A stretch of 64,000 nucleotides of DNA, taken from Sediminibacterium sp. (GTDB taxonomy: Bacteria > Bacteroidota > Bacteroidia > Chitinophagales > Chitinophagaceae). The stretch covers positions 836,104-900,103 of the forward strand of contig JAFWCB010000005.1 of the NCBI GenBank assembly GCA_017537025.1, in the 5' to 3' direction. Positions 34,915-63,211 of this stretch are shown here, in pieces. The notes beneath the pieces were generated by a model that had not been told where the DNA came from, did not search any database, and saw nothing but the letters and a program-made list of their open reading frames with translations. A program made the position numbers and the translations under genes. Position 1 is the first letter of the stretch. Every line of letters starts with the position of its first letter.

Positions 34915-34935
34915 TTAGTTAACAATATTAACTAA
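34915..34935. promoter_or_regulatory. Operator site A upstream of hyuA
   Basis: A perfect inverted repeat TTAGTTAA-CAATA-TTAACTAA lies 16 bp before the hyuA start. It is the best match to the island-wide 21-bp palindrome and likely binds the MarR-family regulator encoded at 55244-55726 (inference). Confidence 0.8.
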
Positions 34936-34965
34936 TTTTAGCCAGCACTCCAAACAGTAGGGCTT

Positions 34966-37356
34966 TTAGCGGAGTATTGTTACAAGTCCTTTTTCCCGAA
35001 CGGGCTTTCCGGTAGCATCTGTAGCACTAATTTCCCAAACAAAGGTTCCGGTAAGTTGCGGTATTCCTGCAACAGTTCCATCCCACCCGGGTTTGGCGGT
35101 TTTCGATTCGAAAACTAATTGTCCCCATCGGTTCCAAATACGGAAATAATTAAGTTCAGCGATGCCAATTAATATAGGAGATAATCGATCATTTTTTCCA
35201 TCTCCGTTAGGAGAAAAACCGGTTGGAACAAATATGCTGATTTTACTAAATAATTCTACGTCTACCGTATCAACAACTTTACAATCATTTGGGGTTGTAA
35301 TGGTGGCTAAATAGCGCATAGCGCTACCTCCATTAAATATGGGCTCAGCTACATCCGTGCTATTGATATAATTAGTGGGTGCCCAACTAAATTTGATACC
35401 ACTATTCAAGGTAGTTAGTTTAGTATCGATACCGCTAGCTGCTCTGATAATATTCTTTTTAGCATTTGGTGCATTTAAAATGGTAATATTTTTCGTTATA
35501 CTTACTGTATCGGCACATTTATCTGTAATTGTTTTTAAGGTTACAGGATATAGCCCTTGTTTCGTATAGCTATGGGTCATATCTCTGTTATTAAAACGGT
35601 TGCCCGCTACAATCCAAGTATATACAGGAATATCGCCATTTGCAATGATACTGGTATTTGTAAATGTAGTATTAGTGCTGGTGCATGGGTTGCCTACAGT
35701 AAAATCAGAAATAGGCGGCGTATAAATTTTGATGATCTTACTCAAAGAATCAATACATCCGTCGGTGGATTGTAATATTTGCGTGAGGGTATAATTCCCG
35801 GGATTGGTATAACTATAGTTTGCGGTGCTATCTTTTCCCGCTCTCCCATCACCCCATCGCCAACTATATTTTACAGGGTAAAGCCCCGGATTAACCGCAT
35901 TTACGCTAATACTATTACCGGTTAAACATTGAGCGGGGTTATTAATTTGAAAACCCGTTTTTGGCAGCGGACGCTGCTTGATCTCGATATTTCTGGTATA
36001 AAAATTACATTGCGCTTTAGTTAATATGGCTCTATAAAAACCTATAGCGGATGGTGTATAGATATAATCAGAAATACCGCTAATGTTGCTGCCATTTTTT
36101 TGCCAGGTGATTGAGAACGTTGAATCTACTTTTAAAGAAGCCGTATATGGCCGATTGCCACAAACCAATGTGTCTCCTTGAATCTGTACAGCCGTATTCA
36201 TTTTTACTACTTCTACATCTACTGTTGACTGCCTGGTGCAACCGGATGCTGTATCTATAACTTTAAGGGTATATGTTTGATCGGTAGGGGGTGAAGCGGT
36301 GCTTGAAAATTCATTAGGGCTTCCTAATCCGATATCGGGTATCCATTCGAAACTATATTGTGTATTATTAAAGCCCGCACTAAGAACAATACTATCTTTT
36401 TCGCAAACTTGTTTTTTTGTAAAAGAAAAGGGAGGGATATATCCTTCTCTCACCACTGTTTTTAAAGTATCGGCACAACCATACCCCGGATATGGTTCTA
36501 AAACAACTGCATAAGCTGCTCCTGCAGATGGAGCTGGTGTAAATTTAAGGGTCGCTTCTGTACCTAATAATTGTGAAAAATCTCCGTTAAACCAAGAATA
36601 CTTGTTGAATCCGAAAGGAGCTTTTAAAACCAAACTATCATCTCCTGTACAAAAACCGGCACCTTTTAATGGGCCTCCACAATCTGTATCAACATCAACA
36701 TAAGCATATCCAAAATGGCCTCCTCTTGTACAATCTGCGGTAGCAAATTTTAATTGAATGGTATGACCGGCTAACTTAGACAAGTTTACTGTAACAGGAG
36801 TCCATTTTTTATACATGATGGTGGTACCTACTGTAGACTCTTCAAATCCCGGTAAGTTAGCACTTACAACATAGGTGAAAGATCCGCACTGTACCTGTGA
36901 GTTTGTGGTTAGATCCAAAACCTCTACTGTAAATCGAGGTTGCTCATTGGGAGCATGACCTGGGTTTTGAAATACTACTGCATACCAATAAACAAGGCTG
37001 TATAAGTTGGCATTTGAAGGAATCGTGAAGGTGTAACGAAGTTGTTCTGTTTGGGCTCCTGTTGATGAATTTCCGAGTTGAACAGAGTAGCCACTTCCAT
37101 TTGGACATAGAACCGGAAATTTTCCATATGGATCGAAACCCATGGTACCATTTCTGAATACTTCATGTCTATTACTGATAGGGCCGCTTTCCAACAGTAT
37201 ATTGTTACCATTGCGTACATTTCCCGTATCGCAAATCCAGTTTGTAAAATTCCCCAGTTCAAAATCAATATTTGCAGCACAACGCTGTGCATTAGTTTGA
37301 ATAACAAACACACAAATACAAATCGCTAAAATCGTAAAAGAGACCAATTGGCGCAT
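34966..37356 (-). CDS. Secreted PKD-domain protein with T9SS type B (gliding-motility) C-terminal domain
   Basis: The 796-residue protein has a signal peptide (VIQTNA-QR). It continues with a jelly-roll-like N-domain (CAANIDFELGNFTNW) and several Ig/PKD-type modules, including YSWRWGDGRAGKDSTANYSYTNPGNY. The C-terminal domain starts IFVPTGFSPNGDGKNDRL, with FRIWNRWGQLVFE and GTFVWEISATDATGK, the type IX secretion sorting signal. It should be displayed on or released from the cell surface. It sits between two metabolic operons of the island without a catalytic domain. A surface binding role is possible. Confidence 0.88.
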   Translation of the reverse strand: MRQLVSFTILAICICVFVIQTNAQRCAANIDFELGNFTNWICDTGNVRNGNNILLESGPISNRHEVFRNGTMGFDPYGKFPVLCPNGSGYSVQLGNSSTGAQTEQLRYTFTIPSNANLYSLVYWYAVVFQNPGHAPNEQPRFTVEVLDLTTNSQVQCGSFTYVVSANLPGFEESTVGTTIMYKKWTPVTVNLSKLAGHTIQLKFATADCTRGGHFGYAYVDVDTDCGGPLKGAGFCTGDDSLVLKAPFGFNKYSWFNGDFSQLLGTEATLKFTPAPSAGAAYAVVLEPYPGYGCADTLKTVVREGYIPPFSFTKKQVCEKDSIVLSAGFNNTQYSFEWIPDIGLGSPNEFSSTASPPTDQTYTLKVIDTASGCTRQSTVDVEVVKMNTAVQIQGDTLVCGNRPYTASLKVDSTFSITWQKNGSNISGISDYIYTPSAIGFYRAILTKAQCNFYTRNIEIKQRPLPKTGFQINNPAQCLTGNSISVNAVNPGLYPVKYSWRWGDGRAGKDSTANYSYTNPGNYTLTQILQSTDGCIDSLSKIIKIYTPPISDFTVGNPCTSTNTTFTNTSIIANGDIPVYTWIVAGNRFNNRDMTHSYTKQGLYPVTLKTITDKCADTVSITKNITILNAPNAKKNIIRAASGIDTKLTTLNSGIKFSWAPTNYINSTDVAEPIFNGGSAMRYLATITTPNDCKVVDTVDVELFSKISIFVPTGFSPNGDGKNDRLSPILIGIAELNYFRIWNRWGQLVFESKTAKPGWDGTVAGIPQLTGTFVWEISATDATGKPVREKGLVTILR

Positions 37357-37394
37357 AACATAGTATCCCTTGATAAAGTTATGCTATAAAACTA

Positions 37395-38228
37395 TTAGTG
37401 GTACTCTTCTCCGCCGCTAACATTCATGGCTTCACCGGTAATATATGCTGCTTCATCGCTACTTAAAAATGCTACGGCTTTAGCAATATCTTCTGCTTGT
37501 CCTGTTCTGCCAAGCGGATTCTTATCTACTATGGCTTGTAAATAATCGTCGTAACTCAGCCCTAACTTATCGCTGAAGAATTTGTTTTGCCAATGACCTA
37601 AACCGGTTGTGATATGATTCGGACAAACAGCGTTTACCCTAATTTTATATTTACCCAACTCAACGGCATTGCTACGCGTAAGACCAACCAGCCCATGTTT
37701 ACTGGCTGTATAAGCTGCGGCAAAAGGGAAGCCGGTTTTGGCCGCCTGAGAGGCAATATTTATAATAGATCCGCCTGTAGCTTGTTTTTGCATTTGAATA
37801 GCAGCATGTTTGCTACATAAAAAAGCCCCTTTTAAATTCACCCCCAATACGGCATCCCAACTACTTTCTTTGAATTCAGTAAAAGGTTCCATGATATAAC
37901 CAACGCCGGCATTATTTACTAATATGTCTAATCGTCCGAATCTATTTACGGTCTGAGCAATCAGGTTTTCACAATCCGCTTCTACGCGAACATCACAGGC
38001 AACCGTAATTACTTCAACCCCAAGAGTCCTGCAGTTTTCTGCTATCTCATTCATTTCGTCGGTAGCACCGATATGTTCAGCAGCAAATTCGGTTCCTTTC
38101 GCTTGGCCAATATCACTAATAACAATACTACAGCCTTCGGCAGCTAATTTTAAAACTATTGCTTCACCAATACCTTTATGCCTGCCTGAACCTGTTACGA
38201 TGGCTACTTTGTTTTTTAAATTATACAT
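37395..38228 (-). CDS. SDR-family oxidoreductase
   Basis: The 277-residue classical SDR has the cofactor motif TGSGRHKGIG (about 12-21), NNAGVGY, and the active-site YTASK. The C-terminal GEAMNVSGGEEYH matches the family. It terminates the operon starting at 41835 and probably oxidises a secondary alcohol in the pathway. Confidence 0.9.
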   Translation of the reverse strand: MYNLKNKVAIVTGSGRHKGIGEAIVLKLAAEGCSIVISDIGQAKGTEFAAEHIGATDEMNEIAENCRTLGVEVITVACDVRVEADCENLIAQTVNRFGRLDILVNNAGVGYIMEPFTEFKESSWDAVLGVNLKGAFLCSKHAAIQMQKQATGGSIINIASQAAKTGFPFAAAYTASKHGLVGLTRSNAVELGKYKIRVNAVCPNHITTGLGHWQNKFFSDKLGLSYDDYLQAIVDKNPLGRTGQAEDIAKAVAFLSSDEAAYITGEAMNVSGGEEYH

Positions 38229-38258
38229 TTTTCAAGGTTATAGGTGAAAGGGAATAGG

Positions 38259-38567
38259 TTAGAGATCGTTGGCTACTATGAACTGTGGATTATCTGCAAA
38301 TTCTGCGAATTGTTTAGCACCCGCTTGAACAGCCTCTGATCCTAGATCTGCGAAGAATGCATTCATATCGGGTATTTCAATAATCTCTGCATATTGATAG
38401 GGAGAAGCAGTTTCCGTACCGAGTAGATTTCCCATTTTCAAAACCCGAAAATTTGAAACAGAATTTAATCCATTTACCGTGGGAATATCTTTTGCTTTTG
38501 CCCAAGCTTCATAATCGGCAATAGAGGCGCTGGGCTTTAGGTTGAAGAGAACAAGGATGGTTGGCAT
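38259..38567 (-). CDS. HapK-like small protein (REDY-like family)
   Basis: The 102-residue protein has ILVLFNLKPSASIADYEAWA, the pattern of the HapK/REDY-like family, a dimeric alpha+beta barrel named after a gene from the prodigiosin cluster of Hahella. Relatives without prodigiosin occur beside catabolic genes in many bacteria. The family link is by recalled sequence pattern, not by search. Function unknown; it lies 30 bp upstream of the SDR start in the same operon. Confidence 0.6.
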   Translation of the reverse strand: MPTILVLFNLKPSASIADYEAWAKAKDIPTVNGLNSVSNFRVLKMGNLLGTETASPYQYAEIIEIPDMNAFFADLGSEAVQAGAKQFAEFADNPQFIVANDL

Positions 38568-38626
38568 GTGGGGAGTTTATAAGGTTTATAGTGTTTGTAA
38601 GTTTATATTGTTATTAGTCAATTGGA

Positions 38627-38735
38627 AAGTCGGTAAGCCAGTCCATTAGAAAGTCCGAGAGTCCGGAGTACAGTAGTCAAAGAAATTTTGGTTTACGGAC
38701 TTGGCTCACTGACTCACCCACTTTCTTATCGACTT
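38627..38735. repeat. Long-spaced inverted repeat with AGTC words
   Basis: AAGTCGGTAAG (38627-38637) is matched inverted, with one mismatch, by CTTATCGACTT (38725-38735). AGTCCG/GTCCGG-type words lie between. The unit fills the 158-bp gap between the aldolase and HapK-like genes and just overlaps the aldolase stop codon. Confidence 0.6.
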
Positions 38736-39481
38736 ATAAAAACTTTCACCCCACTCATAAGCAATCCTTGCACACTGTTCAATAATAAACGAACGCCTTT
38801 ATCACTAAGCTCTTTAGCTTGTTCGGCTGTTGCTGCAACGGTACCAATAATTTTACCTTTAGATGTTACAAAGCTTATCACTTTATCTATGGCTTCTTTT
38901 ACTTCGGCATGCGCAGGGCCATCAATGAAACCCATGCTGAGTGCTAAATCGCGCGGACCAATAATAAAACCATCTACACCTTCCACGGCACACATAGCTT
39001 CCAGGTTATGTATAGCTGTGGTAGTTTCAATCATTGGAAATACCAATGTTTGTTCATTAGCGAATTCAATATATTGCTGTTGGCTCATTTTCCCTGACAT
39101 ATAATCTGATGCGCGTACCGGACCTAATCCTCTTTCCCCTTTCGGAAAATATTTCACAGCTTTTACTAAACGCGCACAATCTGCAGCTGTATTGGTTCCC
39201 GGCATCATCACACCCATAATACCGGCATCGAAATATTGTAGAATCATTTTTTCATCTAAGCTATTGATACGCGCCATAGGAGTGATGCCTACCGATTCAC
39301 AAGCGCGAATCATATGGGTTACTTCAGAAAGGGTGAGAGGACCATGTTCTGCATCCATGATATAGAAATCCATTCCTGCTAAACCGATGTATTCACAAAC
39401 TATGGGATCTGTATTGGGTGTTATTACACCATAACAAGTTTTATTAGCAAGCAATCGGTTACGTAAGTTATTTTCTTTCAT
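38726..39481 (-). CDS. HpcH/HpaI-family aldolase
   Basis: The start is ATG 39481 (MKENNLRNRLLANKTCYGV); the longer frame overlaps the upstream LeuD-like gene. The 251-residue enzyme has FYIMDAEHGPLTLSEV, the catalytic Arg-containing ARINSLDE, MIETTTAIHNLEAM (metal Glu) and FIIGPRDLALSMG (metal Asp). Family members make a retro-aldol cut of 4-hydroxy-2-oxo or related 3-hydroxy acids, giving pyruvate-type products. It follows the first LeuC/LeuD-like pair, as expected for a hydration-then-cleavage module. Confidence 0.88.
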   Translation of the reverse strand: MKENNLRNRLLANKTCYGVITPNTDPIVCEYIGLAGMDFYIMDAEHGPLTLSEVTHMIRACESVGITPMARINSLDEKMILQYFDAGIMGVMMPGTNTAADCARLVKAVKYFPKGERGLGPVRASDYMSGKMSQQQYIEFANEQTLVFPMIETTTAIHNLEAMCAVEGVDGFIIGPRDLALSMGFIDGPAHAEVKEAIDKVISFVTSKGKIIGTVAATAEQAKELSDKGVRLLLNSVQGLLMSGVKVFISR

Positions 39482-39485
39482 AGTA

Positions 39486-40022
39486 TTAATGGAGGTTTGC
39501 AATAGAGCCATCGGCAATTTTAGCCCGAATAAAATTCATGAGTCCGCCACTGGCGGCCACTTCTGCCACAAATGGAGCTACGGGTACACTAGAGAATATT
39601 TTACCGTTTGTAAGATTTTTTATTTCACCGGTTTCGTTGTTATAAGCTAATTCATCACCTGTTTCGCATTCAAGGTTAATGTCTTTACTGGTGATAAATG
39701 GCATGCCATAATTTATAGCATTGCGAAATTGTAAGCGAGCAAAACTGGTTGCAAAAACTGCTTTGATACCGGCGCCAATAAGTCCGGTAACACAATGCTC
39801 AATACTTTTTCCGCCTCCTGCGAAATTATGTCCTGCTACTATAAAAGTGTATCCCATATTCTTAAAGCCATTCTCTTTATTGAATGCTTCATCTACCCCT
39901 GCCATTACCCATTTGCTGTTTTCTTCAGGGTCGATAGGAGAGGTCCAGTATTTTTGGATGATCATATCAAAACTCATTACATAAGTTTTGGCTACCCATG
40001 CTTTTCCACGAATTATTGCCAT
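39486..40022 (-). CDS. LeuD-like aconitase-family small subunit, divergent
   Basis: The 178-residue protein has the swivel-domain fold pattern (IVAGHNFAGGGKSIEHCVTGL, SFARLQFRNAINYGMPFI). The usual substrate-loop motif N-F-G-C-G-S-S-R-E is replaced by N66-F-A-G-G-G-K-S-I-E: the Cys is Gly and the substrate Arg is Ile. The N-terminal NIDTD motif is also absent. It pairs with the LeuC-like gene 9 bp upstream. It should therefore act on a substrate unlike isopropylmalate or citrate, perhaps without the usual free carboxylate contact. Confidence 0.82.
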   Translation of the reverse strand: MAIIRGKAWVAKTYVMSFDMIIQKYWTSPIDPEENSKWVMAGVDEAFNKENGFKNMGYTFIVAGHNFAGGGKSIEHCVTGLIGAGIKAVFATSFARLQFRNAINYGMPFITSKDINLECETGDELAYNNETGEIKNLTNGKIFSSVPVAPFVAEVAASGGLMNFIRAKIADGSIANLH

Positions 40023-40031
40023 AAAAAATAT

Positions 40032-41300
40032 TTACCAGTTTTCGGAACGAGGATCTGTAATTTCTCCTTTAATAGCACTTGCCGCTACTACAGCAGGAGA
40101 GGTTAAATAAATTTGTGCGTTCTTACTACCCATGCGACCCTTCATATTTCTATTGCCTGCGCTTAACACGATATCGCCATCACCGGCTACACCGGTATGG
40201 ATGCCCGCACAGGGCCCACAGCTAGATGTTTCTACCGCGGCACCAGCTTTTACCAAGGTTTCAAAATATCCTTTTTGAATACATTCTAAATACACTTGCT
40301 GACTGGCAGGTATGCAAATCATATTCACATCCCGATGAATTTTTTTACCCTCTAAAATTTTTGCCATGATGGCGAAGTCTTCAGTTCTACCATTGGTACA
40401 AGTACCTACAAATGCTTTATTGAATTTGGTACCCACCAATTGTTCTACAGGAACGGTATCATCTAGTTTATCGGGTTTTGAAACGGTTGGACCTACATTT
40501 GATACATCTACTTCATATACGGCATCATATTTTGCATCCGCATCGCTGTTAATCATCTCCCAGTTTCCTTTCTGAACAGGGTTTAAGTATGTGGCTGTTT
40601 TGGCATCCGGCGCGATGATTCCGTTTTTGGCACCCAAGTCAACAGTCATATTGCATAAAGTCATTCTTCCGGCTATATCCAAAGCTTCAATGGCCGGGCC
40701 GCAGTATTCTAATGCTTTGTAAATAAGATGTCCGTTCCAATGCATCATACCCATGATATGTAAACTAAGATCTTTGGCCATTACCCAGGGTTGCCAGGTT
40801 CCGGTGATGTGAAACTTTACCGATTCGGGAACCCGGAACCAGCATTTACCTGTTGCCATAGCAATAGCGGCGTCTGTAACGCCGATTGCGTTCCCAACAG
40901 CACCAACAGCACCATAGGTATTCGCATGTGAGTCAGTTCCGATAGATATTTTACCCGGTAGCACATGCCCTTGCTCAACCATGAGTTGATGAGCAATACC
41001 TTGCCGGCCGAGGTCGTAGAAATAAGGCAGGTCGTAGCTTTTAACGATTTCCCGCCATTCGTTGAGCATGGTAGCATATTCGGGGGTGGGCGGAGGAACA
41101 AGATGGTCGCTCACGCAAATCACTCGCTCTTTATCAAATAATTTTTTAGATCCCAGGCTTTCAAATGCTTTAAAACACTGTTTGCCTAAATAATCCATCG
41201 TCATTACTGAATGTACATCTACCCAAACTAATTGTCCGGGTACAACGGAATCACGCCCGCTATTGAAAGCCATGATTTTTTCCGTAATCGTCATCGCCAT
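40032..41300 (-). CDS. LeuC-like aconitase-family large subunit (first set)
   Basis: The 422-residue protein retains the aconitase motifs: GTDSHANTYGAVGAV, FVGTCTNGRTEDF with the first cluster Cys, and TSSCGPCAGIHTG with the C-x2-C ligands of the 4Fe-4S cluster. It is expected to dehydrate or hydrate a hydroxy-diacid. It is smaller than LeuC of E. coli and belongs to the homoaconitase/dimethylmalate-dehydratase type branch. It forms a heterodimer with the divergent LeuD-like protein downstream. Confidence 0.9.
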   Translation of the reverse strand: MAMTITEKIMAFNSGRDSVVPGQLVWVDVHSVMTMDYLGKQCFKAFESLGSKKLFDKERVICVSDHLVPPPTPEYATMLNEWREIVKSYDLPYFYDLGRQGIAHQLMVEQGHVLPGKISIGTDSHANTYGAVGAVGNAIGVTDAAIAMATGKCWFRVPESVKFHITGTWQPWVMAKDLSLHIMGMMHWNGHLIYKALEYCGPAIEALDIAGRMTLCNMTVDLGAKNGIIAPDAKTATYLNPVQKGNWEMINSDADAKYDAVYEVDVSNVGPTVSKPDKLDDTVPVEQLVGTKFNKAFVGTCTNGRTEDFAIMAKILEGKKIHRDVNMICIPASQQVYLECIQKGYFETLVKAGAAVETSSCGPCAGIHTGVAGDGDIVLSAGNRNMKGRMGSKNAQIYLTSPAVVAASAIKGEITDPRSENW

Positions 41301-41328
41301 ATGATATGATTAAAAGAGTGATTGCTAA

Positions 41329-41835
41329 TTAGTGATCTGAACGCGATTTGCCGATAAATCTTCTGGCAGCCAGGTTTTCCCAAAAACCGGGATCAATTTG
41401 ATCTTGGGTAGCTGTTTGTCTTTCTTCGATCATGGTAAGACCTTCGAAAGTATCTTCAAAGCTCCATTTCCAAGTGCGGATTCGGTGTTTACCATCTCCG
41501 ATCAAATCTATCATTTCATACAAATGAGAACCCGGGCGGTTTCTGTAGCTCCATGTTAAACATACGCTATCGTGGGTTTCCCAAGCTTTACCGAGAATGC
41601 GGGGGTTATCGAAAATAAGAATGCCATCAGCATTAAATTCACAAACACCAAAATCGTGTAGTTCATAATGTCCATCAGGCCAAGTATATTCATTCACTTG
41701 GTGGTATTTGTTACCATCATATAATTTAATGGTGAGTTTGCTTTTCCACTGATCATACTTTACGCCATTGGCATCAATACGTGTATAAGTGCCCTCCCAG
41801 ATGCCTGTATGATTTGGGAATAGTTTTAGGTTCAT
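41329..41835 (-). CDS. DUF3598-like (lipocalin-type) protein
   Basis: The 168-residue protein lacks a signal peptide. It reads as a run of beta-strands, starting HTGIWEGTYTRIDANGV, with IFDNPRILGKAWETHDSVCL and SHLYEMIDLIG. This resembles DUF3598, whose fold is lipocalin-like and ligand-binding. It is the first gene of the operon for the first LeuC/LeuD set; operator site B lies 22 bp upstream. The assignment is from pattern only. Confidence 0.5.
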   Translation of the reverse strand: MNLKLFPNHTGIWEGTYTRIDANGVKYDQWKSKLTIKLYDGNKYHQVNEYTWPDGHYELHDFGVCEFNADGILIFDNPRILGKAWETHDSVCLTWSYRNRPGSHLYEMIDLIGDGKHRIRTWKWSFEDTFEGLTMIEERQTATQDQIDPGFWENLAARRFIGKSRSDH

Positions 41836-41857: not shown

Positions 41858-41878
41858 ATAGTTAACTAAGTTAATCAA
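41858..41878. promoter_or_regulatory. Operator site B upstream of the DUF3598-like operon
   Basis: ATAGTTAA-CTAAG-TTAATCAA matches the shared palindrome with mismatches at three half-site positions. It is 22 bp before the DUF3598-like start. Confidence 0.6.
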
Positions 41879-41941: not shown

Positions 41942-41962
41942 TTGATTAACATCGTTAACTGT
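41942..41962. promoter_or_regulatory. Operator site C upstream of the TonB receptor
   Basis: TTGATTAA-CATCG-TTAACTGT matches the shared palindrome apart from mismatches at half-site ends. It is 22 bp before the receptor start, and about 63 bp from site B, so the divergent genes share a two-operator control region. Confidence 0.65.
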
Positions 41963-44924: not shown

Positions 44925-45791
44925 TTAATTTTTCTTCTTACGCTCTTCCATAATCTTCTTATAATATTTCCAGCTTGTCATATTGGGTGAAACATAGGTT
45001 TCAGGAGCGTGCTGGTACTCAGGAAAATTCGCCAACACAAAATCCTGTATGGTTTTAGGCAAATCTTTCCATCCGTTTTTTAGCTTATAACCCCTACTTT
45101 GATATAATAGGTTTCCGGGGCGAGCTGCCATCTTCATCCAAGGTAAAAAATCGCTGAAGCGTGTCCATGAAATATCAACAGTGGCATTATCTGTTTTAGG
45201 ATTTTGTAAATCGGCTTCGCTCATAAAAAAATTAAATAACTCTGCACCTTGATAAACATCGCTCCTTGTATTCTCCGGCCATTCGGCTTTTTTTAATGGC
45301 GATGGATAAGAAAGAGGTACATCGTTATAAAGGTTGATACGATCATTGCCTAGTCGCTCGAAAGGCACTTTAAATGTGCCATATTTAAAAGTTTGATTAA
45401 CAGGATCATTCCACACATGTACTACCTCTACTTCCTCGCCTGTCCAGGGATTCTTCCAGGTTTTTAATATTTCATTTGTTTTGGGGTCTTGATATACCAG
45501 CATTTCTCTGGTTATAAGTTTCCAGCCACTATCACCGACTAATTTTTCTACGCGGGCAATATTATACATTTCAAAATTAAAAACATGTTTCCAAGGCTTA
45601 TCCGGATCATAGGCATAGATGGCTCCTTTTGCATAAAACACAACTTCATCTTTAGGATTGAGAGAGGCACGCATTTTAACATAGGCGTCCATATTGCCTT
45701 TTGCATCTGTTAGATCGAAGAGGGGCTTCTTTTGGGCTGATACTGTAAGAAGTGTTGTCAGTAAGAAAATTCCGAAAAATATCTTTTTCAT
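44925..45791 (-). CDS. DUF1838-family exported protein
   Basis: The 288-residue protein has a signal peptide (LTVSA-QK). The mature part starts LFDLTDAKGNMDAYVKMRAS and has MLVYQDPKTNEILKTWKNPWTGEEV, typical of DUF1838. The family's function is unknown, but it is widespread near degradation genes for complex organics. It ends the operon MDR oxidoreductase - exported VOC - DUF1838 that starts at site D. Confidence 0.75.
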   Translation of the reverse strand: MKKIFFGIFLLTTLLTVSAQKKPLFDLTDAKGNMDAYVKMRASLNPKDEVVFYAKGAIYAYDPDKPWKHVFNFEMYNIARVEKLVGDSGWKLITREMLVYQDPKTNEILKTWKNPWTGEEVEVVHVWNDPVNQTFKYGTFKVPFERLGNDRINLYNDVPLSYPSPLKKAEWPENTRSDVYQGAELFNFFMSEADLQNPKTDNATVDISWTRFSDFLPWMKMAARPGNLLYQSRGYKLKNGWKDLPKTIQDFVLANFPEYQHAPETYVSPNMTSWKYYKKIMEERKKKN

Positions 45792-45798
45792 ATTTATA

Positions 45799-52833: not shown

Positions 52834-52880
52834 ACAGGTAACTAAGTAACTAACCCCGAAGGGGTGAAATAATCATAAAA

Positions 52881-53504
52881 ATGAAAAAGATAATCCTCTT
52901 TTTAACAATCGTATCGGGTGTAAATGCCCAAAAGCAATCACCGTTGCTCGCCAGATTTCAGCAATATATTACCGGTGATTTTGATAATAGTAAACAAGTA
53001 GTTGCTGAAATAACTGCGGGTAAGCAGGTACATCCGCTAGCGATACATGTAAATAGATTAGCAACGCATAAAGTAAAAAATGTACCTCAAGGGCTGAATG
53101 GTTTTTTTATTATAGAAGAAAGCTATTATCTCGTAGAAGGTAAGCCGATAGATCTAAAACCTTATTTGTTTTTATTTGAAGAAAGGGTGGGCGGTATCAT
53201 TCATTTAACTACCTATCAATTGAATGCTTGGAAAAAAGAAGAAATAAGAAATGATAATAATACCTTGAGTTTCGATTATACTCAATTAGTATCATCTTCT
53301 ACTTTTAAAGGTGCCGATTACACTTGGGATCCTAAGGATAAAACTTTTAATACCATATCTCCTAACGATTTAGGCAATGGAATGAAATTTACACTTACAG
53401 AAAAATTTACGAATAAACAGTTAAGCGTTTTAGAACAGGTTGAAAGAGACGGTAAGCTAATTACAGCTTGGAACACCCCCATCATTTATATAAGAACGAA
53501 GTAG
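52881..53504 (+). CDS. CpeT/CpcT-family (chromophore-lyase-like) exported protein
   Basis: The 207-residue protein has a signal peptide (SGVNA-QK). LARFQQYITGDFDNSKQ and NGFFIIEESYYL are recognisable from cyanobacterial CpcT/CpeT, whose calyx-shaped barrel attaches phycobilins to phycobiliproteins. No phycobiliprotein is encoded nearby. In non-phototrophs the family has no known role; a lipocalin-like ligand-binding role is possible. It is co-oriented with the aldehyde dehydrogenase. Start chosen for the signal peptide. Confidence 0.6.
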   Translation: MKKIILFLTIVSGVNAQKQSPLLARFQQYITGDFDNSKQVVAEITAGKQVHPLAIHVNRLATHKVKNVPQGLNGFFIIEESYYLVEGKPIDLKPYLFLFEERVGGIIHLTTYQLNAWKKEEIRNDNNTLSFDYTQLVSSSTFKGADYTWDPKDKTFNTISPNDLGNGMKFTLTEKFTNKQLSVLEQVERDGKLITAWNTPIIYIRTK

Positions 53505-55243: not shown

Positions 55244-55726
55244 TTACTTCACTAAATTGTCGTGACGCATAGCTTGAAGACAAGTATCAATAAACTGAGT
55301 GAATTGTAATTTATCGGCTTTGGAAAATTTAGCGAATAGCCTCTTATTATATTCTTGTCGCACAAACTCCATTTTTTCTACCAATTTTTTACCTGCTTCT
55401 GTTAAGGATAGGCGCTTTCTTCTTTTATCATGGATATCTTCTAGTTGAACTACTAATTTCTTTCTAATTAATACATTCAGTAAGTTAGTAATATTCGCCC
55501 TGCTCACATTCATAGCTTCAGCGAGCTCTTTGGCCATCATGGGTTTCTCTTGCGGATTCTCTTTGAAATACAGGATATTAGGATCTTTGGCTAGTAATAG
55601 CAAGATTAACCATTGTTGGGTGGTAATACCAAATTGCTGCGTAATAGCATCACCATTTCGCTTCCAGGTTTCTGAAAGTTTTATAACATGGAATATAACG
55701 GAAGCGTTGAGGTTCTTTTTTAGCAT
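55244..55726 (-). CDS. MarR-family transcriptional regulator
   Basis: The 160-residue protein has a winged-helix domain: FGITTQQWLILLLLAKD, ELAEAMNVSRANITNLLNVLIRKKLV (recognition helix, about 78-103), and the wing DIHDKRRKRLSLTEAGKKL. Length and layout are typical for MarR dimers, which bind roughly 20-bp palindromes and often respond to aromatic or phenolic ligands. It is the only transcription factor in the island, so I infer it controls the TTAGTTAA-N5-TTAACTAA sites, including one before its own operon (site G). Confidence 0.9.
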   Translation of the reverse strand: MLKKNLNASVIFHVIKLSETWKRNGDAITQQFGITTQQWLILLLLAKDPNILYFKENPQEKPMMAKELAEAMNVSRANITNLLNVLIRKKLVVQLEDIHDKRRKRLSLTEAGKKLVEKMEFVRQEYNKRLFAKFSKADKLQFTQFIDTCLQAMRHDNLVK

Positions 55727-55731: not shown

Positions 55732-56970
55732 TTAATTAGATAGGATAACACCTTTCTTTGCTCTTTGATTGATGATAAAGGTAATTACTATTGAAATAAG
55801 GGTCAAAATCAGCATAACAACAAATGCTTTCTCATAATTTCCATTTGCTTTTCGCATACTGCCGAGTACAGCTACACCCACAGATGCGCATATCGTATCA
55901 ATGAATGAAAGTAATCCCAAAATGGTTCCGTAAGCAGCGCCGCCAAACAAATTAATGATGTATAACTGAATCATGGTAAATGTACCACTATAGCCTAGCC
56001 CGAAAACAATAGCACAGGGTATTACAAAGTTTTTATCATGTAAGCTGAGATATAAAAATAAACAGCCTAAAAACATATTTACAACGCTTAGTAACATGAT
56101 TTTTTTCACATCGAACTTATCTCCTAAGAAACCGAATAAAAATTTACCTAATAATCCGCAAGTAAAGAATACGCCTTGCAGTTTACCGCTTTGAGCAACA
56201 TCCAGGAGTAGGTCGGCTTGATAATTTCGTTGATTTTGAATAAAGCCGCCAATGCAAAACCACAACGCTGCGGTAACTAATGCCAGCATATAAAATTCAC
56301 TGGATCCTAATGCTTTTTTAAGTAATGATTTGCGTTCGGCCCTGTCTACTTTTGGTTGTTTACCTATGGTACCTTCAACACCATCTGCATAGGCATTAAT
56401 TTTAGACGGATGCGAAAAGATCAAAAGTGCCGGAAGCAAAATCAAACAAGTACAAATAATAGCTTGATATTGCGCAGCAGTTTGCCAACCTAGTATCTTG
56501 ATCCATTTGCCTACTAGTGGGGCAAATATGGCCGGACCAACACTACTTGCCATCAATAAAGTGCCGGTTGCTATTCCTTTGTATTTTACGAACCAGTTAT
56601 TAATTACATACATGCTGGTGAGTAACCCTACTAAACAAAGAAACAGGGGGTATACAATGGTAAAAGCTCTAACCATTCCAAAGCTTGTAGCATTGGCCAA
56701 AAAAAATAAACCTGCAGAAGCTCCAATAGCACCGGTAACAATTAATTTTTTTGGAGAAAAACGTTCTAGTAAAAAACCTACCAATGGCAAGGGCAGGGCT
56801 AGTACTAAATAGAGTATCGCAGCTAAGCCAGTTGCTTTAGCAATATCAACATTAAAAGTTTTGGCAAACTCTGGCAAATACAAATTGAATGTATTAAGTA
56901 CGATACCATTACTAGCCATGTACATTAAAAACAAGCAAACTAATATTACCCAACAATATATTTTTTTCAT
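55732..56970 (-). CDS. MFS transporter (oxalate/formate antiporter-like, OFA)
   Basis: The 412-residue carrier has 12 hydrophobic segments. It contains GIVLNTFNLYLPEFAKTFNVD after helix 1, GFLLERFSPKKLIVTGAIGAS, and FFTCGLLGKFLFGFLGDKFD between helices, typical of the OFA/monocarboxylate MFS group. It is the first gene of the MFS-MarR-GH13 operon, 5 bp before MarR. It probably carries a small acid product or substrate, under control of site G, 33 bp upstream. Confidence 0.85.
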   Translation of the reverse strand: MKKIYCWVILVCLFLMYMASNGIVLNTFNLYLPEFAKTFNVDIAKATGLAAILYLVLALPLPLVGFLLERFSPKKLIVTGAIGASAGLFFLANATSFGMVRAFTIVYPLFLCLVGLLTSMYVINNWFVKYKGIATGTLLMASSVGPAIFAPLVGKWIKILGWQTAAQYQAIICTCLILLPALLIFSHPSKINAYADGVEGTIGKQPKVDRAERKSLLKKALGSSEFYMLALVTAALWFCIGGFIQNQRNYQADLLLDVAQSGKLQGVFFTCGLLGKFLFGFLGDKFDVKKIMLLSVVNMFLGCLFLYLSLHDKNFVIPCAIVFGLGYSGTFTMIQLYIINLFGGAAYGTILGLLSFIDTICASVGVAVLGSMRKANGNYEKAFVVMLILTLISIVITFIINQRAKKGVILSN

Positions 56971-57003: not shown

Positions 57004-57024
57004 TTAATTAACATGGTTAACTAT
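57004..57024. promoter_or_regulatory. Operator site G upstream of MFS-MarR-GH13
   Basis: TTAATTAA-CATGG-TTAACTAT matches the shared palindrome with one or two mismatches in each half. It is 33 bp before the MFS start, so the regulator's own operon is probably autoregulated. Confidence 0.7.
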
Positions 57025-57094: not shown

Positions 57095-57868
57095 CTAAAC
57101 GCCTTTAATAGCTCCTCCATCAACGGTAATAGTTTGCCCGGTAATATAGCGGCTATGCGGGCTTAGAAGCCATAGTGCTAAGCTGGCAAAATCATCGGCT
57201 TCACCCAGGGCGCCCACAGGTATTTGGCTGATAGCTGCTGCCTTAACTTCTTCAAAAGTTTGGCCTGTTTGTTCGGCTTTCTTATGATAAATCCGATTGA
57301 TAGCCGGGGTATTATGCGAACCCGGACCCATGATATTTAAAGTAATCCCCGATTTGGCAATTTCTTGTGCTAAAGTTTTTACCATACCCACAACCGCAGC
57401 ACGCAATGAGTTACTCAACACTAAATTTTCTGCCGGTTGCTTTACAGTATAACTTTCGATATAAACAATACGGCCATAGCCGCTTTCTATCATCTGTGGA
57501 ATAAAAGCTTGTGTAAAAGCTACTTTCCAACGCAGTAATAACTGGTAGGCATGATCCCAATCCGCTAAAGTTGTTTCTAGTACTGTTTTTGCCGGTGGTC
57601 CGCCGGCATTCATAACAATTCCATGTAATTGTTGATTACCGATGTACTTTTTACAAGCTTCGATAGCTGTGTTTGTATCAACGCCTACATCTGCCACAAC
57701 ACAGTGTACAAATGGGTTTTCGGCATATAATTCGGCGAGGGAAGATGCTGTTCGGGCAATAGCAATTACACGGGCTCCTTCTGTTAATAATTGTTGTGTA
57801 ATAGCTTTGCCAAAACCGGAAGTAGCACCTCCTACAATAAATAATTGATTTTTAAGTTGAAGATTCAT
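57095..57868 (-). CDS. SDR-fold protein with non-canonical active site
   Basis: The 257-residue protein has GGATSGFGKAI (cofactor), NAGGPP and the terminal TGQTITVDGGAIKG. The usual YxxxK is replaced by S152-N-S-L-R156 (LVLSNSLRAAVVG), a variant seen in some SDR-family members. S139 of IVYIES keeps its place. Activity may depend on other residues or be lost. It ends the operon that begins with the HMG-CoA-lyase-like gene. Confidence 0.85.
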   Translation of the reverse strand: MNLQLKNQLFIVGGATSGFGKAITQQLLTEGARVIAIARTASSLAELYAENPFVHCVVADVGVDTNTAIEACKKYIGNQQLHGIVMNAGGPPAKTVLETTLADWDHAYQLLLRWKVAFTQAFIPQMIESGYGRIVYIESYTVKQPAENLVLSNSLRAAVVGMVKTLAQEIAKSGITLNIMGPGSHNTPAINRIYHKKAEQTGQTFEEVKAAAISQIPVGALGEADDFASLALWLLSPHSRYITGQTITVDGGAIKGV

Positions 57869-57877
57869 ATTGTTATA

Positions 57878-59335
57878 TTAATAAGGTCGATGTAAATAGT
57901 TTCCTTGGGCTTCACCAAGTATTTCTCCTTTTTCATAAATCAAGGTACCCCTTAAAAAGGTAGCTGTTACAGGGGCTCTAAATTGATGACCTTCAAAAAC
58001 GCTATAGCCCTGCGTGCTTGGCGAGTCGGCTGATTTAACGGTAAATGTTTGATTGGGATCAATTAATACAATATCACCATCAAAGCCTTCTGCAATATCG
58101 CCTTTATGTTTTAATCCAAATCTTTGTGCAGGGTTCCAACAGAGCAGTTCTGCCATTTTATTTACGGATAAACCACGTTTAGAGCCTTCGGTGAACACGC
58201 CACTAAGTAGAAATTCAGATCCGCCAAAGCCGCTTTTGGCTAACCATACATTATCTTTTTCATGTGCATCTGTTTTAAATTCTGCTTTACAGCATGCATG
58301 GTCGCTACATACCCAGTCTATATTACCGGCTAATACATGTTCCCATAAATATTCCACATCTTCCCGGCTCCTAATGGGTGGATTCACTTTAGCATGTAAA
58401 CCACATTCGCAATCGTAATCTAATATTAAATGTGCTAGCGTTACTTCTCTTTTGAAGTTAATATGCGGAAAAACTTGTTGCATCATAAGGGCTGCATCTA
58501 CTGCTTTCGCTGAAGTGAGATGCAATAAATTAATATTGGCGCAAGATGTTTCATGTGCGAGATAGGAAGCAATAAAAATAGCGAGCCCCTCACTATGTGG
58601 AGGCCTGGCCGCAGAATAAGCCCTTAAACCTTTGAGCTTGCCTTCTTTCTGTACAATATTGGTATATGCTCGCATGATTTCTGCAGTTTCACAATGTAGC
58701 CCGAGACTAATGGAATCCGCTTTCTCAGGAAACCGATCTATGGCTTTTTTCACTCCCCTCATAATAAACTCAAAATGGGCATAATCATAATACTCGCCAT
58801 CGGGAGTCATTAAAAAATCTTTCTGTGTATTACTGGTTCCATGTAAGCCATAGTTACCATAAAACATAAATATTTTAAAACTTGTGACGCCGAATTTTTC
58901 AATCAACATTTCTATTTCATCTATATGACTGTATTGAATCGGTGCAATATGGTAGCTATAGTCTACATAAAACCGATCTTTAGAAATAGAGAGTACTTCG
59001 GGGAAAAAAGTTGAATAAGGTCCGGTTTTATTTAAATAATATTTACCGGTACGCATATAGTTTAAGGAAGAAGTAACACCCCCCATCGCAGCCGCCTTAC
59101 TTTCAGTTATGGCATCTTCCTCCAAAGGATTGTAAATACCCGTGTGCATATGCGCATCTGTTAAGCCGGGGAATGCCAATTGATGTTGACCGTCGTATAC
59201 AGTAGCTGCTTCAGTGTCGGTAATGCCAGTAGCTACCTTTACAACTTTGCCATTCTTTATAGCAATATCTGCCTTTTGGGTTCCCACATAATTTGGACGA
59301 ACCACGTCAACATTTTTAATCAATAGATCGTACAT
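57878..59335 (-). CDS. Dihydropyrimidinase/hydantoinase-like cyclic amidohydrolase
   Basis: The 485-residue protein has all metal ligands of the family: DAHMHTG (HxH), the carboxylated-Lys region TSFKIFMFY (Lys about 151), LGLHCET, LLHLTS and VCSDHACC (Asp). It opens cyclic amides, imides, dihydropyrimidines or hydantoins with a binuclear zinc centre. It is 11 bp downstream of the CoA-transferase gene in the HMGL operon. Dihydropyrimidinase, dihydroorotase or allantoinase functions are equally possible, but the context favours a degradative imidase role. Confidence 0.88.
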   Translation of the reverse strand: MYDLLIKNVDVVRPNYVGTQKADIAIKNGKVVKVATGITDTEAATVYDGQHQLAFPGLTDAHMHTGIYNPLEEDAITESKAAAMGGVTSSLNYMRTGKYYLNKTGPYSTFFPEVLSISKDRFYVDYSYHIAPIQYSHIDEIEMLIEKFGVTSFKIFMFYGNYGLHGTSNTQKDFLMTPDGEYYDYAHFEFIMRGVKKAIDRFPEKADSISLGLHCETAEIMRAYTNIVQKEGKLKGLRAYSAARPPHSEGLAIFIASYLAHETSCANINLLHLTSAKAVDAALMMQQVFPHINFKREVTLAHLILDYDCECGLHAKVNPPIRSREDVEYLWEHVLAGNIDWVCSDHACCKAEFKTDAHEKDNVWLAKSGFGGSEFLLSGVFTEGSKRGLSVNKMAELLCWNPAQRFGLKHKGDIAEGFDGDIVLIDPNQTFTVKSADSPSTQGYSVFEGHQFRAPVTATFLRGTLIYEKGEILGEAQGNYLHRPY

Positions 59336-59346
59336 GCCTGGATGTT

Positions 59347-60525
59347 TTATATCGTTGTAATAATATTTTTATTGGCTAATGTTAAAATCGTTGCTTCGTT
59401 GTATCCTAAGCTTGTTAAGATATCTTTCGTGTGTTCTCCAATAGCAGGTGGATTTTGAATAAGTTCAATGGTGGCCCCTTCATAATCGATAGGTGTTTTT
59501 GGAAGTTTAGTAATAGTGCCATCCGGTAAAGTAGTGGTAAGTAAGCTTCCGCCTTCATTTAATTGAATGTCGTTGAATAAATCTTCCGGTTTAGTGATAG
59601 GGGCAAATGTAATTCCTGCTACTTCGCACTTATCCATGATCTCCTGCTTAGTAAATGTTTTCATCATTTTTTCTACTTCGGGTAGAAACCATTCTCGCTG
59701 ATCAATACGATTATTATTAGTATGTAACCGTGGATCAGCTTTCCAATCCGCTCTTTCAAAAGCATCACAAAAACGCTCCCAATGTTTTTCACTGATGATT
59801 CCTACAAAAACCTGGCTATCGTCTTTTGTATCAAAAACCCGATAAATACTCCAAGCACTAACACGCGCGGGCATTGGCGGCACTGGTGTTTTAGTAATGG
59901 CGCCATAGGCCATATGCTGGCCCATTAAAAAAGCTGTTGTTTCAAACAAGCTTGCTTTCACTATTTTACCAACACCCGTTTTCTCTCTTTCATATAAGGC
60001 TAATAAAATGCCCGTATAGCCGAATGTACCGCCGGTAATATCAATTACCGAAGTGCCCGCACGAAGCGGATCTCCCGGTCTACCGGTCATGTACGCTAAT
60101 CCGCCCATCATTTGTACCACTTCATCCATGGCGTGGCGCTTTTCGTAAGGGCCGTTGGCAAAACCTTTTAAAGAGCAATAAATAATTTTTGGATTGATTT
60201 GTTGTAAGTGTATGTAACTGTATCCTAAGCGATCCATAGTGCCCGGACCAAAATTCTCTACTACTACATCAGCGGTAGGCACTAGCTCTTCAATAATTTT
60301 TTTGCCTTCAACCGATTTAATATCAATGGCTAAACTTTTTTTATTTCTATTGTAGAAAGGAAAATAACCTGTGCCAAATCCTTTAAGGCGGCGGGTTTCA
60401 TCGCCCTGCGGTGGTTCAATATGAATGACTTCTGCACCCATATCTGCCAATAATAAACCTGTTGTTGGTCCCATTACGGCATGGGTAAATTCGAGTACAC
60501 GTATGCCTGTTAAGGGTAAGCTCAT
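59347..60525 (-). CDS. CaiB/BaiF-family (class III) CoA-transferase
   Basis: The 392-residue enzyme starts PLTGIRVLEFTHAVMGPTTG and has GDETRRLKGFG, RNKKSLAIDI, ADVVVENFGPG and the catalytic Asp in HAMDEVVQMMGGLA (near 169). Class III enzymes transfer CoA between carboxylic acids. It overlaps the LeuD-like gene by 4 bp. It would activate a diacid for cleavage by the HMGL-type lyase. Confidence 0.92.
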   Translation of the reverse strand: MSLPLTGIRVLEFTHAVMGPTTGLLLADMGAEVIHIEPPQGDETRRLKGFGTGYFPFYNRNKKSLAIDIKSVEGKKIIEELVPTADVVVENFGPGTMDRLGYSYIHLQQINPKIIYCSLKGFANGPYEKRHAMDEVVQMMGGLAYMTGRPGDPLRAGTSVIDITGGTFGYTGILLALYEREKTGVGKIVKASLFETTAFLMGQHMAYGAITKTPVPPMPARVSAWSIYRVFDTKDDSQVFVGIISEKHWERFCDAFERADWKADPRLHTNNNRIDQREWFLPEVEKMMKTFTKQEIMDKCEVAGITFAPITKPEDLFNDIQLNEGGSLLTTTLPDGTITKLPKTPIDYEGATIELIQNPPAIGEHTKDILTSLGYNEATILTLANKNIITTI

Positions 60526-61010
60526 TCGAGTATATAATCTTTATGTTTTTGTAAATAGTTTACCAATCCGCCTTCTTGCATAATAGCCAACATTACCTTG
60601 GGCATTTTAGTAGCATTATAGGTTTTGTTTTTTGTTTTATTTTCAACGATTCCGCTTGCTAAATCAACTGCTAACAAATCACCTGTTTCAATATCATGGT
60701 CAGGTATTTCTAAAACAGGTAATCCGATATTGATAGCATTACGGAAAAAAATACGTGCAAAAAAACGAGCGATCACTACCGATACACCTGCAGCCTTTAA
60801 TGCCACCGGTGCTTGCTCGCGCGATGAACCACAACCAAAATTATCTCCTGCCACAATCATATCACCCACTTGAAATTTTTTATGAAAATCAGGATCAAGA
60901 TCTTCCATCACATGCGCTGCTAGTGAGGCGATATCTAATGTTTTAGTATACTTACCGGGTATGATACGATCGGTATCGATATTGTTTCCGTATGTGTGGG
61001 CTATAGGCAT
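60522..61010 (-). CDS. LeuD-type aconitase-family small subunit (second set)
   Basis: The 162-residue protein has the canonical small-subunit features: NIDTDRIIPGKYT at the N-terminus and GDNFGCGSSREQAP (N57-R64) with Cys, SSR substrate loop intact. This contrasts with the divergent partner at 39486-40022. It pairs with the LeuC-like gene 24 bp upstream and overlaps the CoA-transferase gene by 4 bp. Confidence 0.92.
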   Translation of the reverse strand: MPIAHTYGNNIDTDRIIPGKYTKTLDIASLAAHVMEDLDPDFHKKFQVGDMIVAGDNFGCGSSREQAPVALKAAGVSVVIARFFARIFFRNAINIGLPVLEIPDHDIETGDLLAVDLASGIVENKTKNKTYNATKMPKVMLAIMQEGGLVNYLQKHKDYILE

Positions 61011-61034
61011 AGCAAAAAGATTTTTAGATTCGGG

Positions 61035-62279
61035 TTACAAGATTTGAGATTTAGGCGTATTGATGAAACCATGGAGTGCACTTATAGCAACTGTTGCAGG
61101 ATTGGCCAAATAAATACTGGCATTCGGATTACCCATTCTTCCCTTAAAATTTCTATTAGCAGCACTGATCACTACTTCTCCGTCTCCGGGTACCCCTTCA
61201 TGACTTCCTACACAAGGTCCACAGCCACTATTGATGATAGTAGCACCCGCTTCTATAAGTGTTTGTATCGTACCATCTTTTAAGGCATCTATCAAAACCT
61301 GTTTACTGGCAGGTGCAATCACCATGCGAACGCCAGGGGCAATATGCTTTCCTTTTAAAATAGCTGCCGCAGTTTGTAAGTCATCCAGGCGCCCATTTGT
61401 ACAAGTGCCAATAAAAGCATAACTAATTTTAGTGCCTACATAATCTTCAACATTATGAACATCATCGGGCGAATTGGGGATAGCAATTTTAGGTTGGATA
61501 GCGGCGGCATCTATTTCGATAACCCTACTATAATTTGCATCATCATCTGCTTCAATAGGCTCAAAATCGTAGGGCAGTTGTAATCCTTTAGGAGAAACGA
61601 TACCCGTTTTCGCTCCCATTTCTGCTACCATATTACAAAGCACCATACGTTGAGAAAGGGAGAGTTGTGCAGCGGCTTCACCATGATATTCAACTGCCTG
61701 ATAAGTAGCGCCACTGATGGTTAATTGTTTCACCACTTCTAATACTAAATCCTTTCCACTTACACCGGGCTGTAATTTTTTTCCATGTAATACCACCTTA
61801 ATAGTTTGCGGCACTTTCAACCAAATTTTTCCGGTAAGCATAACAGCAGCCAGATCGGTACTACCCACTCCACAGGCAAATGCATTGAGAGCGCCATAGG
61901 TTGGCGTATGGCTATCGGCACCCATAAAAATATCACCGGGTTTTACTTTGTGATTGTCTACCATTACTTGGTGACAAATACCACTGCCAATATCGTATAA
62001 CGAACATCCATACTCATGGGCAAAACTGCGCATCAAGTTATGGAGGTTAGCAATACGCTCATTCGGTGCCGGTGCTGCATGATCGATGATTAAATGAAAT
62101 TTATTTTTATCGGCTAGCTCGGTTCCTCCCATTTCTTTAAAAGCCTTTATGGCTAAGGGTGCTGTGGTATCTGTAGCCATACAACCATCAACAGGAACAA
62201 TACAAAGTTCACCTGCATATACTTTTTTACCGGCATGATTTGATATTATTTTCTCAGCAATTGTTTGCGGCATGATCAT
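61035..62279 (-). CDS. LeuC-type aconitase-family large subunit (second set)
   Basis: The 414-residue protein has GADSHTPTYGALNAFACGVGS, IGTCTNGRLDDL and NSGCGPCVGSHEG with the three cluster Cys. Its size fits isopropylmalate/dimethylmalate/citraconate dehydratase-type large subunits. The start overlaps the HMGL stop (ATGA), so translation is coupled. Because the genome presumably needs a separate leucine-biosynthetic copy, a catabolic role is likely here. It would convert an unsaturated diacid to its hydroxy form. Confidence 0.92.
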   Translation of the reverse strand: MIMPQTIAEKIISNHAGKKVYAGELCIVPVDGCMATDTTAPLAIKAFKEMGGTELADKNKFHLIIDHAAPAPNERIANLHNLMRSFAHEYGCSLYDIGSGICHQVMVDNHKVKPGDIFMGADSHTPTYGALNAFACGVGSTDLAAVMLTGKIWLKVPQTIKVVLHGKKLQPGVSGKDLVLEVVKQLTISGATYQAVEYHGEAAAQLSLSQRMVLCNMVAEMGAKTGIVSPKGLQLPYDFEPIEADDDANYSRVIEIDAAAIQPKIAIPNSPDDVHNVEDYVGTKISYAFIGTCTNGRLDDLQTAAAILKGKHIAPGVRMVIAPASKQVLIDALKDGTIQTLIEAGATIINSGCGPCVGSHEGVPGDGEVVISAANRNFKGRMGNPNASIYLANPATVAISALHGFINTPKSQIL

Positions 62280-63187
62280 ATCATTTTTATATCGGCTCTA
62301 TCTAACAACGAATAAACTAATCCCGGTAGGGGGGCTCCTATTTGTTTTTCCATATCCCTACTAACAAGAGCTACTTTGTGTATATCAATATCGGTGCTAT
62401 GCCCCATTTGATGGAGCATGTGTACGGTATCCTCAGTGGCAATATTGCCGGTAGCGCCTTCAATAAACGGACAGCCACCAAGGCCGCCAAAAGCAGTATC
62501 AAATTGATAAATACCGGCATCAATAGCGGCTAACAAGTTTGCGTATCCTTTATTTTCCGTGTTATGTAAGTGAAGGGTTATAGGCATATCCGATGAAATT
62601 GCTTGTATAATCTTCATCATTTTATGAATTTGTGCCGGATTACCCATGCCGGTAGAATCGGCTAATGCTAATTCGGCTACCCCACAATTAATATGATGCT
62701 GAACCAAGTCATATACTACATGCTCATTTATTTTTCCTTCGTAGCGGCAGCCAAAAGCACATTGAATACCCCCGCGTACGGTTATGTTTTCCTGTCTGGC
62801 AATTTTTACCATTTCAGCAAACTCAACTTTGGCTTCCTCAATAGATTTATTGGTATTTTTACGACTGTGGGTATCGCTGGCAGAGAGTGAGATAGATACA
62901 TGTTTCAAACCCGCTTTAGCAGCTCTTTCAATTCCTTTCAGATTAAGCACTAACCCGCTGAAAACTACACCCGGCGCAGCAGGCAATCCCGAACAAATAA
63001 TTTCTGCATCGGCCATTTGAGGAACTATTTTTGGGTGAACAAAACTTGCTACCTGAATTCGTTTTAAGCCGGCTGTAATAAGTTGGTTTATATACGCCAG
63101 TTTTTTTTCGACAGGAATAATAACCGCAAGCGTTTGCATACCATCGCGTAGTCCTTGCTCTTCAATAATAATTTTTTTCCCTTCCAT
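62276..63187 (-). CDS. HMG-CoA-lyase-family enzyme
   Basis: The start is ATG 63187 (MEGKKIIIEEQGLRDGMQT); the 204-bp upstream extension runs through the operator and the divergent gene. The 303-residue TIM-barrel has EQGLRDG, SFVHPKIVPQMADAE, ALADSTGMGNP, LHLHNTENKG (metal His pair) and GGLGGCPFIEGATGN with the catalytic Cys. It cleaves 3-hydroxy-acyl-CoA such as HMG-CoA or citramalyl-CoA. It heads the operon HMGL-LeuC-LeuD-CoA-transferase-amidohydrolase-SDR. Confidence 0.92.
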   Translation of the reverse strand: MEGKKIIIEEQGLRDGMQTLAVIIPVEKKLAYINQLITAGLKRIQVASFVHPKIVPQMADAEIICSGLPAAPGVVFSGLVLNLKGIERAAKAGLKHVSISLSASDTHSRKNTNKSIEEAKVEFAEMVKIARQENITVRGGIQCAFGCRYEGKINEHVVYDLVQHHINCGVAELALADSTGMGNPAQIHKMMKIIQAISSDMPITLHLHNTENKGYANLLAAIDAGIYQFDTAFGGLGGCPFIEGATGNIATEDTVHMLHQMGHSTDIDIHKVALVSRDMEKQIGAPLPGLVYSLLDRADIKMI

Positions 63188-63190
63188 AAA

Positions 63191-63211
63191 ATAGTTAATG
63201 AAGTTAACTAA
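63191..63211. promoter_or_regulatory. Operator site H between divergent genes
   Basis: ATAGTTAA-TGAAG-TTAACTAA (one mismatch) lies 3 bp before the HMGL start codon and 31 bp before the divergent GTG start. The near contact with the HMGL start means binding would block transcription or the very start of the message. Confidence 0.8.

Follow-up and report, generated by a model that had tools for sequence, protein, structure and literature searches.

A shared palindrome as the putative operator of a MarR-type regulon in a catabolic gene island of Sediminibacterium sp.

The window, i.e., the whole 64-kb stretch of DNA analysed here, carries a catabolic gene island that extends, as judged from comparison with relatives, from about 26.9 kb to just past the window end. 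The first part of the island (26948..34898, reverse strand) encodes HyuA, a small exported protein, HyuB, a methyltransferase, an unknown protein, a SnoaL-like protein and an MFS transporter, and the same set is found in the related genomes G196 and G197. It is followed by the operon DUF3598-LeuC1-LeuD1-HpaI aldolase-HapK-like-SDR1 (37395..41835, reverse strand), a gene for a TonB-dependent receptor (41985..44849, forward strand), an operon for a CurA-like reductase, VOC1 and DUF1838 (44925..47916, reverse strand), an alpha/beta hydrolase gene (47966..48799, forward strand), a gene for an FAD-dependent oxidoreductase of the flavocytochrome c type (48794..50236, reverse strand), and genes for a nitrilase-superfamily amidase, an aldehyde dehydrogenase (ALDH) and a CpcT-fold protein (50293..53504, forward strand). 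A MarR-family regulator (55244..55726, reverse strand), the proposed owner of the operators described below, shares an operon with an MFS transporter gene located upstream of it (55732..56970, reverse strand; NCBIfam match below the cut-off). The operon HMGL-LeuC2-LeuD2-CaiB-dihydropyrimidinase-like-SDR2 (57095..63187, reverse strand) and a VOC-family gene of uncertain start, which extends beyond the window (63243..64000, forward strand), complete the set. The exported status of island proteins is a reading of their N-termini. LeuC1 and LeuC2 belong to the homoaconitase/isopropylmalate dehydratase family (477.4 and 522.8 bits, respectively; TIGR01343 cut-off, 385.7), and HyuAB score below the NCBIfam equivalog cut-offs for caprolactamase (542.2/1000 and 186.8/1000 bits). 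The protein at 52881-53504 has the CpcT fold at 14% identity to CpcT; no Pfam family was matched, the gathering score of CpeT/CpcT (PF06206) was not reached, and the best relative in this gene position scores 11.7 against the required 21. Searching PDB sequences with profiles built from the DUF3598 and CpcT-like alignments yielded no match below E 0.03, and a structure model of the VOC protein at 45799-46911 was discarded at a pLDDT of 44.

A preliminary description of this DNA had reported seven copies of a palindrome, TTAGTTAA-N5-TTAACTAA, and all seven were recovered with zero to four mismatches, in intergenic positions and at a frequency far above chance. The copies at 34915..34935 and 50257..50277 are perfect, as had been stated. 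The former lies 16 nt before the start codon of hyuA, and the latter lies between the FAD oxidoreductase and nitrilase-family genes; G195 has a site in the same hyuA gap, and a site precedes the nitrilase gene in G195, G196 and G199. Single mismatches are found in the putative operators at 47930..47950, between the CurA-like and alpha/beta hydrolase genes in a gap conserved in G195, G196, G197 and G199, and at 63191..63211, between the HMGL operon and the VOC gene, where the HMGL side is conserved in G196 and G197. The putative operator at 57004..57024 (two mismatches) precedes the MFS-marR operon, again with a counterpart in the same gap of G195. Two further candidates, also present at the same places in G195, are located before the DUF3598 operon (41858..41878, three mismatches) and before the TonB receptor gene (41942..41962, four mismatches). 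The latter is a weak putative operator with the sequence TTGATTAACATCGTTAACTGT; its gap contains paired sites in G197 and G199, and its half TTAACTGT is the same as in the divergent-gap operator of G230 and G324. The copies at 34915 and 57004 lie between same-direction genes, and five sites in four gaps, rather than the three sites first proposed, lie between divergent genes. A possible eighth copy at 51355 was rejected; the best match nearby, at 51359, has four mismatches, and no site was found between the nitrilase and ALDH genes of G196, G197 or G199.

With up to three mismatches, the window contains eight matches against 1.33 expected, and eight or more were found in none of 100 shuffles. 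Six of the eight are sites named above (the seventh, at 41942, has four mismatches), and the remaining two, at 1887 and 24499, have three mismatches each and fall within ORFs outside the island. The 17 island intergenic segments of at least 21 bases (1,187 bases in total) were shuffled 1000 times as a control, giving means of 0.000, 0.009, 0.112 and 0.624 matches at up to one, two, three and four mismatches, against 4, 5, 6 and 9 observed, respectively. Across the source genome (G000, 3.19 Mb), the palindrome occurs at six places with up to two mismatches, five in the island and one on another contig close to the start of a called ORF. At up to three mismatches, it occurs at 52 places and a back-to-front control pattern at 148. 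Since the control pattern outnumbers the palindrome at this looser threshold, a site with three or four mismatches by itself proves nothing, and the support for sites 41858 and 41942 comes from their conserved positions in relatives. That the palindrome is a chance pattern or a dispersed AT-rich repeat would fit its being no commoner than the reversed control at this threshold, but this explanation is already contradicted and has virtually no probability left, given that high-stringency copies are restricted to island gaps and that the 22 sites counted share no clear flanking sequence past about 25 bp.

Examination of 22 site-gene pairs, 10 of them from the window, revealed that the site lies 2 to 36 nt upstream of the start codon used in 21 pairs. 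The exception is the FAD gene of G196, at 169 nt, whose start was probably called too late. The longest-frame ORF of the HMGL gene overlaps site 63191, and the start set by conservation, 63187, is 3 nt from the site; the corresponding distance is 4 nt in G196 and 2 nt in G197. A symmetrised alignment of the 22 sites from four genomes gave an informative stretch of about 25 bp, in which TTAA is invariant in both arms, 37 of the 44 arms have a G before it, and the spacer edges are Y/R, although the invariance is partly circular in that the sites were picked by similarity. The core, AGTTAA-N5-TTAACT, is 17 bp long and lies inside a palindrome of 21 to 25 bp with the fuller consensus AAWTAGTTAAYNWNRTTAACTAWTT. 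A palindrome near the promoter is a feature of the MarR family, and the 17-bp core ahead of start codons agrees with it; PMC5401885 gives about 16-20 bp as the usual size of a MarR-family palindromic operator. The position of the sites just ahead of start codons would suit a repressor that blocks initiation. Activation by MarR bound to the same sites has a precedent, as some MarR proteins activate, e.g., LdtR (PMC4658428), but sites that abut start codons, at 2-4 nt in the case of HMGL, would be odd for an activator, and we consider this alternative unlikely. The nearness to start codons would also suit a hairpin formed by the 5' leader RNA, and four of the sites fold better than their shuffled versions (z -3.8 to -5.5). 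At -3.4 to -6.0 kcal/mol, these four folds are weak, however, and the inverted repeat serves both directions of divergent gaps, with a single copy between two gene arms in family f19 (described below), leaving the hairpin a very small probability.

GTDB contigs were scanned with a MarR profile, which returned seven loci: in G195 (L030, 98%), G196 (L031, 73%), G197 (L032, 65%), G198 (L033, 65%), G145 (L034, 49%, on the contig of the idi-linked gene as judged by length and position) and G199 (L035, 45%), plus one distant locus (26%). G195, G196, G197 and G199 each combine the island, a MarR orthologue and the palindrome, the last in matching gaps. In the source genome and these four relatives, all 13 places with up to one mismatch are in islands. 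With up to two mismatches, and with G198 added, the count is 21 of 44. Frequent hits elsewhere, named in the preliminary description as evidence against a regulon, are therefore not seen in these genomes at the stricter threshold, and the picture is less clean at the looser one. Nine non-island sites of G195-G199 were fetched with their flanks, and their neighbours are unlike island genes except for a weak TonB match. In 194 other genomes of the family, up to one mismatch is found at 21 places in 20 genomes, none of them perfect and with at most two per genome. In G198 the island is partly decayed: MarR remains, together with a split DUF1838 gene and an MFS remnant of 102 aa, and no site was detected in the 20 kb around these genes.

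Of 395 Bacteroidota genomes scanned for the island VOC gene, six have it, the source genome included; in 395 genomes of the class, the source genome alone matched. The gene set itself occurs in at least four Bacteroidota families or groups. In the phylum sample, the MarR profile (E<=1e-25) matched four genomes, all among the six with the VOC gene, and three of these four (G211, G230 and G324, of the more distant family f19) belong to one genus and thus represent few independent events. In these three, two island arms diverge from a single gap. One arm runs from DUF3598 through HyuAB and in G211 and G230 extends further, to MarR and nitrilase (this part is on a separate contig in G324), and the other is MFS-TonB-...-VOC. 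The divergent gap carries CAGTTAA-N5-TTAACTG in G230 and G324, where it holds the single exact core of each genome, and a degenerate palindrome in G211, where no exact core was found genome-wide and none of the four 21-mers at up to two mismatches is on the island-bearing contig. G473 and G529 have the island with merely distant MarRs (E about 3e-8), and the exact core is absent throughout both genomes; the single two-mismatch 21-mer of G529 is on another contig. Over 13 genomes, 18 of 24 exact cores are in islands and six are outside. The core or the 21-mer is present in seven of the eight genomes with an intact-looking island and orthologue, the exception being the degenerate G211, and the core is in neither of the two islands lacking the orthologue; G198 is an exception to the co-occurrence of operator and orthologue.

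The arrangement of operon heads differs among the relatives. hyuA follows the SDR gene in G196, G197, G199, G211, G230 and G324, whereas in G000 and G195 it is preceded by a PKD-domain gene and, after that gene, a perfect site. In the latter two genomes MFS-marR, too, is headed by a site of its own, and in G196 and G197 it closes the HMGL gene string, which a site heads. Operators thus seem to have been gained when a transcription unit split off from a two-armed island.

The island MarR contains the MarR domain (Pfam MarR_2, 42.6 bits against a cut-off of 27; MarR, 26.5 against 24.6). As previously proposed, no other transcription factor was found among the scanned island proteins, and the regulator's own operon carries a site, 57004, which points to autoregulation in the window; one of the two MarR genes of G199 has no site at its own start. 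The segment SRANITNLLNVL, which we take to be the recognition helix, is identical or almost so in the closest orthologues and the idi-linked proteins (SRANITNLVNVL); G199 and the f19 genomes have a different one. No such palindrome was found upstream of the idi-linked MarR genes of G065 and G145; thus, the target cannot be deduced from the helix by itself. The deep branching order in a tree of 12 MarRs is unsettled. A phage origin of MarR was rejected, with no relative in a scan of viral contigs. A regulator encoded elsewhere could instead bind the palindrome, with MarR merely co-inherited with the island, and the lack of nearby sites at the G198 and idi-linked MarRs would suit it. We regard this as quite improbable, as MarR is the sole regulator found among the scanned island proteins, the site heads the MFS-marR operon and marR-containing operons in relatives, and the exact core is absent from the two orthologue-free islands.

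What is observed is that the sites exist at the stated positions, that high-stringency copies are confined to the island, and that they accompany the MarR orthologue and matching gene gaps. From these observations, the palindromes are probably the operators of one local regulon of the island MarR, with a pathway compound as the predicted inducer, and comparative genomics thereby lends support to the MarR link proposed earlier. We infer that MarR binds the palindromes and represses. A MarR dimer would occupy AGTTAA-N5-TTAACT, which lies upstream of start codons at distances of a few to about 35 nt, and block transcription initiation at the catabolic operons and at the MFS-marR operon itself. 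Binding of a substrate or intermediate of the pathway would free MarR from the DNA and switch on the island genes together. Counted against this regulon are the siteless MarR of G198, the degenerate G211 operator, the idi-linked MarRs and one G199 gene without the palindrome, the six outside cores, and the common genus of three of the four MarR genomes. With the operator defined, a guess made from sequence alone has become a regulon that can be tested, and the island genes are marked as a co-regulated set. The regulation itself is ordinary in kind; more interest attaches to the pathway under its control.

The island pathway probably degrades a cyclic imide or a lactam. The CpcT (bilin-lyase) fold, the imide/lactam hydrolases and the homoaconitase-type enzymes suggest tetrapyrrole fragments as the leading substrate candidate. 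A bolder and rather doubtful proposal places under the regulon a complete bacterial route, as yet undescribed, for dismantling bilins or chlorophyll-derived fragments. In such a route, exported CpcT-fold and VOC proteins would handle the pigment, HyuAB would open pyrrolinone lactams, maleimides would be opened by dihydropyrimidinase-like hydrolases (or PuuE-like ones in family f19), and amidases would remove nitrogen. Substituted maleates would be hydrated by the two homoaconitase-type LeuCD pairs (hydrolysis of hematinic acid would give a methyl-homoaconitate) and then cleaved to central metabolites in HpaI-type and HMGL/CaiB steps, and MarR would act as the sensor of a pyrrolic or maleimide intermediate. 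A search of open-licence PMC papers found none on the motif, the island or its pathway. If the substrate is derived from tetrapyrroles, the island bears on the final mineralisation of pigments such as chlorophyll, whose annual synthesis and degradation are on a scale of 10^12 kg (PMC7318184).

CpcT/CpeT lyases attach bilins, and HapK/RedY proteins are associated with prodigiosin-type pigments; unlike CpcT/CpeT, the window protein matches no Pfam family, has only the 14% identity given above, and is located in a catabolic cluster. Identity of the island MarR as a known equivalog was rejected, as every NCBIfam score is under its cut-off (HpaR, 42.4/121.2; BilQ, 36.3/125; AdcR, 30.1/175; SlyA, 28.4/120 bits). 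The zinc regulators AdcR/ZitR recognise a TTAAC-type site and thus share TTAAC elements, as well as a weak profile match, with the island system, but the island has no zinc genes. The SlyA operator, given as TTAGCAAGCTAA in PMC5797941, has the same outer arms, TTAG...CTAA, whereas the island site is 21 rather than 12 bp long, with an inner TTAA and a 5-bp spacer. MarR-family regulators of catabolic clusters, among which HpaR is the best NCBIfam match, resemble the island system in the MarR domain, the palindromic site, a site before their own operon and a local regulon; in contrast to HpaR, whose cut-off lies far above the score of the island MarR, the genes differ and the island has seven putative operators.

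The spacer TGAAG is common to three of the operators, the 21-bp palindromes proposed as binding sites of the island MarR, in the window (47930-47950, 50257-50277 and 63191-63211), and it is retained at the corresponding places in the related genome G196. The spacer of an operator should be free to vary, yet TGAAG is retained. The operator at 63191-63211, which lies between the HMGL operon and the VOC gene, contains an ATG in frame with the VOC reading frame on its right, a candidate start of this gene; the same in-frame ATG within the operator is found in G196 (MKLTNFCRF...). In another relative, G199, the operators at L075 6489 and L075 8261 are followed by identical 20 bases downstream, and this sequence identity suggests that they represent a duplicated promoter.

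Two genes, encoding a PKD-domain protein (34966-37356) and a GH13-like protein (53517-55283), lie within the island of the window's genome and of G195, and neither is present in the islands as mapped in G196, G197 and G199. The protein encoded at 52881-53504 has no Pfam match, and its predicted model adopts a CpcT bilin-lyase fold; the host bacterium is non-photosynthetic. The island of the more distant G211 encodes two relatives of PuuE-like allantoinase together with an isochorismatase-type hydrolase (L097 11733-14299), and no dihydropyrimidinase-like gene was mapped in this island.

Outside the island, a MarR protein adjoins an isopentenyl-diphosphate-isomerase-like gene in two genomes that lack the island (L018 1438-1947 and L019 1438-1950), and it is 47-49% identical to the island MarR.
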